A stretch of DNA of 64,000 bases from Nitrospirota bacterium (GCA_016194305.1 JACQBW010000033.1:1-64000); one strand, 5' to 3'. Shown: positions 8,140 through 10,470, counted from the first letter of the stretch. Program-made: numbers and translations. Notes: generated by a model from the sequence alone, not told the origin.

Positions 8140-8804
8140 TGCGTTATTATCCCATTTTTGTGAATCTTGAAAATAGGATCGTGGTCGTTGTCGGGGGAGG
8201 CACCGTCGCAGAAAGGAAGGTCGTATCTCTGATCGAAGCGGGCGCAAATGTGGTTGTCATTAGCCCTGAATTGACGCCCACCCTGTCTGAAATGGTTAAG
8301 TACCGCCAGATTCATCAATTCCAACGGAATTATCAGACTGGCGACCTCAAAGGAGCTGCGCTGGTCATCGCGGCAACCAACTCATTCGACATCAATCAGA
8401 GTGTCGCAGAGGAGGCAAAGACACTTTCTCTTTTTGTGAATCATGTCAATTCTCCGGACCATTCCACATTTATCGTTCCTTCCGTCATTTCAAAAAAAGA
8501 TCTTCAAATCGCAATTTCAACGAGCGGCCAGAGTCCTGCGCTGACCCGGCAAATCCGGATCAAACTGGAAAATGAGTTTGGGTCGGAGTATGACGTTTTT
8601 ATCGACCTGCTCAGCCAGGTCAGACGTCAGCTGCATAAAATAGCGGTACCGGAGGAAAATCGGTCTGCCATTTTGAATAATCTGGTTGAGTCTGATATAT
8701 TGGATTTGCTAAAAAATCAGCAAAGGGAACGTGTCTTACAAAGGGTAAAGGAGATATCTCCACAGACTCCGATCAAATTTAAGGTAGTTGAAGATGTTAT
8801 ATAG
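8139..8804 (+). CDS. precorrin-2 dehydrogenase / sirohydrochlorin ferrochelatase (CysG N-terminal type)
   Basis: This 221-residue protein matches the N-terminal half of CysG and yeast Met8p. These enzymes oxidise precorrin-2 with NAD+ and insert Fe2+ to make siroheme, or feed the alternative heme or d1-heme branch. The Rossmann motif VVVVGGGTVAERKV lies at residues 15-28. The family signatures AATNSFDINQSVAEEA, VNSPDHSTFIVPSV and ISTSGQSPALTRQIR are all present. There is no fused uroporphyrinogen methyltransferase domain. The start overlaps the bamD-like stop by 1 nt and its end overlaps the next small gene by 11 nt, indicating one transcript. Confidence 0.92.
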   Translation: MRYYPIFVNLENRIVVVVGGGTVAERKVVSLIEAGANVVVISPELTPTLSEMVKYRQIHQFQRNYQTGDLKGAALVIAATNSFDINQSVAEEAKTLSLFVNHVNSPDHSTFIVPSVISKKDLQIAISTSGQSPALTRQIRIKLENEFGSEYDVFIDLLSQVRRQLHKIAVPEENRSAILNNLVESDILDLLKNQQRERVLQRVKEISPQTPIKFKVVEDVI

Positions 8805-8955
8805 CCTGGCACGCGCTCTCCAACTCATTGGTCTCGCGATAACCCTGGTCGTGATCATCCTTTTTTTTGACTCCAGCTATAAAATGGGGTTTCTGATGTC
8901 CGGTGCTGTCACTGGAATTGTGACCTTTTATGCGGGCTGGTTTCTTCAACAGTAA
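8794..8955 (+). CDS. 53-residue membrane peptide
   Basis: A short ORF with ATG at 8794, overlapping the end of the siroheme gene, and TAA at 8953-8955. It encodes 53 residues forming two hydrophobic helices (about 8-25 and 33-51) joined by a short polar turn, DSSYKMG. It contains no Cys. AAGG lies 9 nt before the ATG. The overlap, ribosome binding site and uniform hydrophobicity make it likely to be real. I recognise no family. It sits immediately before a DUF692-type enzyme, whose relatives modify small peptides, so a substrate or membrane-anchor role is worth considering, but nothing in the peptide resembles known MNIO precursors. Confidence 0.6.
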   Translation: MLYSLARALQLIGLAITLVVIILFFDSSYKMGFLMSGAVTGIVTFYAGWFLQQ

Positions 8956-8974
8956 TCATTCTCCGGCTTCTTAA

Positions 8975-9919
8975 ATGAAAACTCAATCTGAAAAGTATAT
9001 TCAATTGATTCAATCGATACCCTTTCATGGAATCGGACTTTCGGTCGATCTGCACGTACCCGATCTTTTTGAATTGATCTCCCGACTTAACCACGCCGGC
9101 CTTGCATTCGATTACCTGGAAGTTTTCAGAGGTCCGGTCTCCCTATTGGCACCGGTCCGAAAGGTTATCCAGAAGATTCATCCTCTCGAATATCACGCCG
9201 ACTCCCTTTGGTTTACGCAACCTGAGTTTTTTCAAACTCCCTGGGAGAAGGAGTGTCGTAAGATTATCCAGGACACCTCAATCCTCAAATCTCACTGGGT
9301 GACACATGAATGCGCGACCAAAGAAATTTTCGGAAATTTCTTCGGAACCTATCTTCCTCCGCTGTTGACCCGGATGAGCGGTGAATTAATTGGCCGGCAG
9401 AGTGCATTTATTCAAGACTATTTATTTTCCCACTGGGAGGATCAGGACGTCCTTCCTCCGCTTCTCCTGATCGAAATTCCTCCCTTTTATTCATTTGCTG
9501 TGGGTGATCTGACTCTTTCGCATTTTTTCAGGATTATCTCAGAGCATTCCCCGTGTGGATTTCTACTGGATATCGGGCACCTTTACACCTACTTTCTTAG
9601 CTCTGGTTTGAAACATCGAATCTTGTTTGAAAGCTTTATCGAAACTTTTCTCGACGAATTTCCACTCGAAAGAGTCGTTCAAATTCACCTGGGAGGCTTA
9701 AAAGTATATCATCAGGGCTATCAGGATCATCATGGTTCACCTGTGCCAGAGCTCTTATTTGAGTTCCTCCCTCTCCTGTTGGGCGATTCCAGACTGGCTT
9801 ATTTAAAGGGAATTGCGCTGGAGGTGGATACCAAAGAGATTGATCTGATTCTCACTGAATATGCCCGCTTTCAATCCCTCGGAGCCAAATGGTTAGATCT
9901 CAGGAAAGTCCCCGATTGA
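8975..9919 (+). CDS. divergent DUF692 (MNIO / UPF0276) family protein
   Basis: A 314-residue TIM-barrel-type protein with the ordered landmarks of DUF692. These are LEVFRG, then YHADSLWF (His74), HECATKEIFG (His111, Glu112), LLLIEIPPF (Glu167), GFLLDIGHLYTY (Asp199, His202), VVQIHLGGL (His238), DHHGSPVPELLFEFL (Asp251, His253) and ALEVDTKE (Glu283). DUF692 enzymes bind two or three irons and oxidatively modify peptides (MbnB, TglH, ChrH, BufB). Here several usual Asn/His positions differ, notably LLDIGH in place of the common LLDVNN, so it is a divergent branch whose chemistry is uncertain. No ribosome binding site is obvious at the ATG. The next gene starts in its stop codon. Confidence 0.7.
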   Translation: MKTQSEKYIQLIQSIPFHGIGLSVDLHVPDLFELISRLNHAGLAFDYLEVFRGPVSLLAPVRKVIQKIHPLEYHADSLWFTQPEFFQTPWEKECRKIIQDTSILKSHWVTHECATKEIFGNFFGTYLPPLLTRMSGELIGRQSAFIQDYLFSHWEDQDVLPPLLLIEIPPFYSFAVGDLTLSHFFRIISEHSPCGFLLDIGHLYTYFLSSGLKHRILFESFIETFLDEFPLERVVQIHLGGLKVYHQGYQDHHGSPVPELLFEFLPLLLGDSRLAYLKGIALEVDTKEIDLILTEYARFQSLGAKWLDLRKVPD

Positions 9920-10359
9920 ATAACGAAGAATCTCTCCAAAAACAATATTTCGATTATTTTGAATTAATTATCGGGCGGACCGAATATCATAAGAGCTCCC
10001 TTGCCTCAATGGTTCGGCTCGAAAATCAGGACGCGCTTCATAACTTTCAGCGTGACTATTTGAAGGATCAAATTCTGAACTGGAGCGGAATCATCGAAGA
10101 AATTTTCAGCAATACGGTCACGGAATTGAAAAAAGAGGGGATCGACCTAAACAAGTTTGTCTCTTTCTTTCACCAGGAACCTCTTTCTCTGAAAACAGAA
10201 TACGACTTCTTCAAGATAAAACTCGATCGGTTCAGAGTCTTTGTCACCCAATGCGCGGAATGGACTGAACCGGCCACCCGGACAAGACTCCTGGACATCG
10301 TCGATCAGGAATATCACTCCTGCCGGAAAGCATACCTCGCATTTAATCCACCTGATTAA
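9916..10359 (+). CDS. hypothetical helical protein linked to the DUF692 gene
   Basis: A soluble, mostly helical protein of 147 residues, acidic and aromatic, with a single Cys pair far apart in the C-terminal half. I do not recognise a family. I chose a TTG start at 9916 because it overlaps the DUF692 stop as TTGA and has AGGAAAG 8 nt upstream. An in-frame ATG at 9889 with GGAG close by would add 9 residues and overlap the DUF692 gene by 31 nt. MNIO enzymes usually need a partner protein that presents the substrate. Position suggests this could be one, but the sequence does not show a known partner fold. Confidence 0.6.
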   Translation: MNNEESLQKQYFDYFELIIGRTEYHKSSLASMVRLENQDALHNFQRDYLKDQILNWSGIIEEIFSNTVTELKKEGIDLNKFVSFFHQEPLSLKTEYDFFKIKLDRFRVFVTQCAEWTEPATRTRLLDIVDQEYHSCRKAYLAFNPPD

Positions 10360-10470
10360 ATGGGTAATCCACTCTCAATATCTTTCCAATCCGGCAGAAT
10401 ATTGAGAACGGATGGCAGGCTTTCTCTGTTAGAGAAAGTGATTGAAAAAAGGTTGAAAGAAAGAATTTAA
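10360..10470 (+). CDS. possible 36-residue ORF after the DUF692 partner gene
   Basis: An ATG follows the preceding TAA without a gap and opens 36 codons ending at TAA 10468-10470. The product is basic, ends in an amphipathic Lys/Glu/Arg/Leu helix, and has no Cys. No ribosome binding site is present beyond possible termination-reinitiation. A perfect hairpin lies inside. It may be a chance ORF. Confidence 0.2.
   Translation: MGNPLSISFQSGRILRTDGRLSLLEKVIEKRLKERI
10420..10438 (+). other. perfect stem-loop, no U-tract
   Basis: CTTTCTCT-GTT-AGAGAAAG forms an 8-bp perfect stem with a 3-nt loop at the end of the DUF692 operon. It is followed by tgattg rather than a T run, so it is not a classical terminator. 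It could be an mRNA 3' end or processing hairpin. Confidence 0.35.

Follow-up and report, generated by a model that had tools for sequence, protein, structure and literature searches.

A DUF692 (MNIO) protein of Nitrospirota with a built-in helical domain proposed as its partner

Does a DUF692 (MNIO) gene that lies between two small ORFs and next to a gene for a helical protein belong to a peptide-modifying system of the kind already described for this class of enzymes? The locus is found in a stretch of 64,000 nucleotides from a Nitrospirota bacterium (GCA_016194305.1 JACQBW010000033.1:1-64000), hereafter the window. A preliminary description had proposed a group of four ORFs: a 53-residue membrane peptide, a divergent MNIO, an unknown helical partner and a 36-codon ORF. 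All four ORFs are present where that description placed them (Table 1). They do not form one unit, since the peptide is not linked to the enzyme in relatives, the 36-codon ORF shows no coding pattern, and the presumed partner is a domain of the enzyme. The locus probably encodes a single-chain MNIO with a built-in partner domain that acts on an unlinked peptide or protein, and that appears in the window as two overlapping ORFs.

Table 1. Features of the MNIO locus, in positions of the window.
Feature	Position	Strand	Basis or remark
53-aa two-helix membrane protein	8794-8955	+ (co-directional with MNIO and partner)	Conserved behind bamD and sirC
MNIO (DUF692, PF05114) TIM-barrel catalytic domain, 314 aa	8975-9919	+	Pfam, hhalign, AlphaFold/Foldseek
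Codons of Asp199-Ile-Gly-His202 (DxxH)	9569-9580	+	His in place of the Asn that binds Fe at site 3 of TglH/HvfB/MbnB (alignment-based)
Overlap with both frames open	9859-9919	+	61 bases; ORFs one base apart in frame; orthologues fused across
Partner domain, 156 aa, all-helical	9889-10359	+	Homology to the C-terminal ~150 aa of the fused proteins; AlphaFold; Foldseek

The product of the barrel ORF matches PF05114 with 44.6 bits against a gathering score of 25 (E=1.4e-11), which confirms its proposed identity, and its orthologues match the same family (MbnB_TglH_ChrH) with 46-60 bits (E 3.8e-12 to 2.6e-16). When the family was aligned to bufferin-type MNIOs with hhalign, an E-value of 7.5e-13 and a probability of 97.8 were obtained. 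In NCBIfam, the best models for the 314-residue protein were ApyH, BufB and HvfB, all far under their cut-offs, and the top one, the ApyH (aminopyruvatide) model NF050151, gave 44.9 bits where 400 are required. Because PF05114 is matched above its cut-off and these three models below theirs, the protein falls within the superfamily and outside all of its named branches. The structure was modelled with AlphaFold for the fused Nitrospira moscoviensis orthologue, with a pLDDT of 92.4 and a pTM of 0.92 across both domains. In a Foldseek search of the PDB, ranks 1-6 are all MbnB chains of methanobactin complexes (E 1.5e-9 to 1.9e-8; target TM 0.75-0.79). The PF05114 match and the MbnB-like model together support the divergent MNIO fold that had been claimed. 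As judged from sequence and model, the fused family described below is a new, uniform branch of the MNIO superfamily.

The first indication of fusion comes from 58 relatives searched with the MNIO protein, in which matches of ~38-44% identity were found in all genomes of family f2, a Nitrospiraceae-type family of mainly nitrite oxidisers that includes Nitrospira defluvii and N. moscoviensis. These matches sit in open frames of ~500 residues, the C-terminal ~150 of which are homologous to the 156-residue protein of the window. A contig search with the single window protein gave no match, and one with an alignment-based query did. Both domains lie in one ORF in 77 of the 80 loci from named Nitrospirota; of the remaining three, two run off their contigs and the third is interrupted within the MNIO part by an in-frame stop codon. 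Every intact Nitrospirota orthologue found is one protein of ~500 residues, and separate ORFs were seen only in the window genome. The expectation that the genes would stay together in relatives thus holds for the partner, which is kept with the orthologues by fusion, and fails for the small ORFs.

Across the phylum, the fused MNIO is present in 141 of 396 genomes: in f2, in part of f12, in one f14 genome, in f24, which is a distant family of another class, and in the window genome. It is near-universal in f2 (112/118 genomes and 90/91 of the near-complete ones), and nearly all of these have one full-length copy. A search for the helical domain gave one match in each of 68 genomes out of 198, always together with the MNIO and never outside this enzyme family. 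Its nearest relatives, genomes G001 and G002 of the same family as the window, do not have the fused MNIO, so that the window genome is the sole carrier there, and in the tree the window copy forms a long branch. Outside Nitrospirota, the search consisted of two exact peptide patterns over all species and of tblastn in plasmids, the latter yielding no place that covers 80% of the query; given this limited search, the fused branch may reach further. Two irregular copies were also recorded. The orthologue with the in-frame stop (L108:3480-4988) continues in frame after it and is either a pseudogene or a sequencing error, and the copy of genome G157 lies in two frames.

How, then, should the split in the window be read? 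One extra base within the overlap would merge both ORFs. The overlap contains a CCCC run at 9910-9913 and, by eye, no canonical slippery heptamer for a programmed -1 frameshift, and the ATG that opens the second ORF has a GGAG four bases 5' of it. Three readings of the split are open: an error of the assembly, a genuine change of one base, or a split gene that works; if real, it would be a recent one-base change with translational coupling via the GGAG-ATG within the overlap. Since the window copy is both split and on a long branch, it could be decaying, and one may go further and take it for a recent pseudogene, the fused enzyme having been disrupted by the loss of one base, with both halves drifting since. 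It is the only split copy seen, with its frames offset by a single base, and two other genomes of its family lost the gene or never had it. Against this, neither the nine ligand positions nor the conserved motifs of the partner domain show any damage, codon-position GC is that of coding sequence in both ORFs, the second has its own start as described above, and an assembly error would look identical. We consider a pseudogene unlikely.

The helical protein had been called an unknown partner. It is indeed a real coding helical protein, matching the family profile with E=5.6e-42 and having a codon-position GC like that of other genes; it is not a separate gene elsewhere and corresponds to the C-terminal domain of the enzyme. 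No Pfam family was matched over its cut-off by the domain from the window or from the orthologues, DUF2063 (PF09836) included, hhalign detected no profile similarity to DUF2063-type partners, and PDB sequence searches with the domain returned nothing relevant. In the AlphaFold model of the domain (pLDDT 84), the two best Foldseek matches among 350,542 PDB chains are both TglI (8hi7_A and 8hci_A), although by score neither is significant (E 0.83 and 1.3, probability 0.54 and 0.41, TM 0.44 and 0.43). Such a score is no proof by itself; it is nevertheless unlikely to be by chance that the two leading matches of this model are both an MNIO partner. Two other assignments were discarded: a phytochelatin synthase-like identity, for which the Pfam match (0.008) was below cut-off and was not repeated in the orthologues, and a DUF2063 identity, for which sequence support is absent and just the weak TglI fold match speaks.

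For the single-chain enzyme, we propose that the N-terminal TIM barrel would hold a cluster of two or three irons for the activation of O2, and that the C-terminal helical domain would take the role played by the separate TglI, HvfC or MbnC, holding the substrate peptide and tuning the cluster. In this mechanism the partner domain would present a peptide or protein segment to the di- or tri-iron site, where it would be oxidised with O2.

Which peptide or protein might this be? Neither in f2, f12 and f14 nor in the window was a conserved precursor found to be linked to the gene, and the lack of a Cys-rich precursor noted earlier was borne out, no Cys-rich ORF lying upstream in the window. Most probably, the gene for the substrate lies at another place in the genome. 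In f2, dus (tRNA-dihydrouridine synthase) lies directly downstream in 76 of 80 loci, its start overlapping the end of the MNIO gene by 4 bp in 46, with maf after dus; a CBS/PilZ gene is divergent. The MNIO adjoins a gltD-like gene in f12, has a lipoprotein gene and a CheW/CheZ gene beside it in f24, and is near nfeD and a slipin-type gene in the window. With no neighbour common to all families, a conserved neighbour was rejected as a clue to function.

The f24 lipoprotein deserves separate consideration. In 14 of 17 loci its short gene comes straight after the fused MNIO gene, whose stop codon it often overlaps (examples are L194:3303-3704 and L141:7500-8261, with 12 further loci), and it is present in 19 f24 genomes, unlinked in three. 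After the lipobox Cys, two cysteines of the protein are invariant, one of them within a Cys-Pro, in a domain that is duplicated in some members (four Cys). Because of these invariant residues and the linkage, it is a fair substrate candidate in f24, and it fits the usual type of MNIO substrate, Sec-exported Cys proteins (PMC12452194). One could suppose that the lipoprotein is the substrate in f24 and that a diverged or different secreted protein is the substrate in Nitrospira. This proposal we regard as doubtful: a search of Nitrospiraceae for homologues of the lipoprotein gave none at E<=1e-3, its Cys residues may do no more than pair as a disulphide within a transthyretin-like fold (CarboxypepD_reg), and the predicted ligand set, which is of PbsC type (see below), argues for a non-Cys target. 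As a universal substrate the lipoprotein was rejected, being absent in the other families, and a weak match to it in the window genome (E 4e-4) proved to be an unrelated carboxypeptidase-regulatory-like protein. The window's contig carries, outside the window at ~78.5 kb, a convergent gene pair (L229:734-2211) whose products are secreted proteins of the carboxypeptidase-regulatory-like kind; these have conserved Cys and His and are mutually related by eye.

Classical MNIO-DUF2063 pairs are separately present in four f2 genomes and in genomes G001 and G007. The fused enzyme is thus not their replacement. In G001, of the window's family, loci L162 and L158 carry a bufferin-type MNIO with a DUF2063 partner and the fused enzyme is lacking.

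We then considered the metal site. The iron ligands of TglH are H71, H107, E151, D184, N187, H216, D229, H231 and E258 (PMC10880893). By alignment, the predicted ligands of the window protein are His74, Glu112, Glu167, Asp199, His202, His238, Asp251, His253 and Glu283, so that a metal-capable residue occupies 9/9 of the TglH positions; that most ligands are kept had been claimed correctly. These columns are invariant in 65 aligned proteins, and the distant f24 family has the same pattern as the other fused MNIOs. Two positions differ from TglH in kind. H107 of site 1 aligns with Glu112, which has His111 next to it; Glu112 is the likelier ligand, because His111 is replaced by Gln in one f12 member. 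N187 of site 3 is replaced by His202. This second replacement is the change from LLDVNN to LLDIGH first noticed in the window, and it is fixed among the 65 proteins. It is not unprecedented, the same Asp/His spacing being predicted in a PbsC-type MNIO (Asp213, His216; PMC12257519), and its uniqueness is further ruled out by DUF692 proteins of Streptomyces and Piscinibacter, which have TED/GED and DIGH/DVSH motifs.

In this characterised PbsC-type MNIO, which belongs to a biphenomycin-like pathway, the predicted ligands are His97-Asp133-Glu178, His216-Asp260-His262 and Asp213-His247-Glu290, and the target is Phe, which is ortho-hydroxylated, not Cys (PMC12257519). The N175A substitution at site 3 of HvfB abolishes activity (PMC13419390), and a fixed His at this site thus marks a different sub-branch. 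The ligand set of the fused family, with an acidic residue at site 1 and His at site 3, would be that of a carbon-hydroxylating MNIO and not of a Cys-rearranging one.

A ligand set of endonuclease IV type could also hold Zn or Mn, and the protein might then be a non-oxidative hydrolase or isomerase of the endonuclease IV/xylose-isomerase-like superfamily that merely resembles MNIOs. DxxH is a typical motif of that superfamily, endonuclease IV is the next-best fold of the model after MbnB, and the window MNIO has a Pfam match to AP_endonuc_2. The latter match is below threshold, whereas that to PF05114 is above its cut-off; MbnB outranks endonuclease IV (TM 0.79 versus 0.61, E 1.5e-9 versus 2.3e-7); a characterised MNIO, that of PbsC type, is predicted to share this pattern of ligands; and a domain resembling an MNIO partner is fused to the barrel. 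A Zn or Mn enzyme is on these grounds distinctly improbable.

Turning to the small ORFs, the 53-residue peptide is Cys-free and hydrophobic, as first described, and real, with an identity of 83% to its counterpart in G001 and of 77% to that in G002, where it lies right after bamD-sirC and where this MNIO is lacking. Several further families of the phylum have more distant homologues, in many cases without this MNIO, and none was found in the flanks, up to 5 kb each side, of 80 orthologues. Since the peptide occurs without the enzyme and is absent near the orthologues, it is not part of the system, contrary to the initial proposal; it tracks bamD-sirC. A RiPP system in which the MNIO modifies this peptide with the helical protein as a separate partner is accordingly hardly tenable, even though the three genes are adjacent and co-directional in the window, in the usual order of MNIO clusters, peptide-MNIO-partner (PMC12452194). 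The peptide itself looks like a small unnamed housekeeping membrane protein. The 36-codon ORF does not stand as a gene: no homologue was found in 30 relatives (best other E=0.04), and its codon-position GC is flat (0.36/0.39/0.39), i.e. without a coding pattern.

How does the single-chain enzyme compare with known systems? The locus is, as had been stated, unlike bufferin, methanobactin or Tgl loci, with neither a Cys-rich or DUF2282 precursor nor a DUF2063 partner. It resembles MbnBC and TglHI in its TIM barrel, in the positions of its predicted ligands and in its proposed helical partner, which those systems require for activity; the barrel has its best PDB match in MbnB, and the partner domain finds TglI first, below significance. 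It differs from them in that the partner is in the same chain, in the predicted changes from His to Glu at site 1 and from Asn to His at site 3, and in that no leader-peptide gene and no Cys-tailed or Cys-pair precursor is nearby. With HvfB-HvfC and BufB-BufC it shares the combination of a PF05114 enzyme and a partner. BufC and HvfC have a DUF2063 signature, whereas PF09836 is matched neither in the window genome nor in the partner domain, and no DUF2282 or other Cys-rich precursor accompanies the gene. Joining HvfB and HvfC artificially in one chain raises activity above that of the two separate proteins (PMC13419390), which makes a natural single-chain enzyme functionally sensible.

PbsC-type MNIOs are similar in the acidic residue at site 1 and the DxxH, their ligands being predicted as well (PMC12257519). 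They have a separate RRE-containing partner and linked precursors, whereas the acidic residue here is Glu and not Asp and no precursor is linked. PME-type 2 proteins are MNIO partners without the DUF2063 signature (PMC12452194), and the partner domain is like them in being helical, short, encoded right after the MNIO and devoid of that signature, with TglI as its best, though not significant, structural match; it differs in being covalently joined and in having no recognisable RRE part. Finally, MovX (an MNIO with a fused RRE) and MNIO-nitroreductase fusions also carry an extra domain (PMC13419390, PMC12452194), but the one described here is all-helical and partner-like, and neither an RRE nor a nitroreductase.

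MNIOs are known from accessory peptide clusters, and here 99% of near-complete Nitrospiraceae-type genomes carry one. This near-universality, in a family where the substrate is not encoded beside the gene, suggests an undescribed core role for the MNIO class. We tentatively put forward, as one possible form of such a role, that this enzyme belongs to the core set of Nitrospiraceae, and also of another, distant family of the phylum, and oxidises a conserved housekeeping protein instead of a dedicated RiPP precursor. The question raised is which core protein or peptide of Nitrospiraceae-type bacteria gets oxidised. The family also offers a stable natural enzyme-partner construct for mechanistic work, for which HvfBC required artificial fusion, and adds a large and uniform predicted ligand set to the few non-Cys sets described for MNIOs. 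We found no paper linking Nitrospira or Leptospirillum with DUF692, or Nitrospira with multinuclear non-heme iron; nor was such a domain arrangement with a core-gene distribution found in the literature covered, which leaves out most subscription journals, so that an earlier mention is possible.

A further observation concerns a plasmid of Streptomyces europaeiscabiei (L240:2277-4081), which encodes a DUF692 protein of 533 residues that has the same DIGH motif and is extended at length beyond the barrel at its C-terminus. A 51-residue ORF lies upstream of the gene and a YcaO gene near it; this seems to be another fused MNIO, separate from the present one, in a cluster not yet described.
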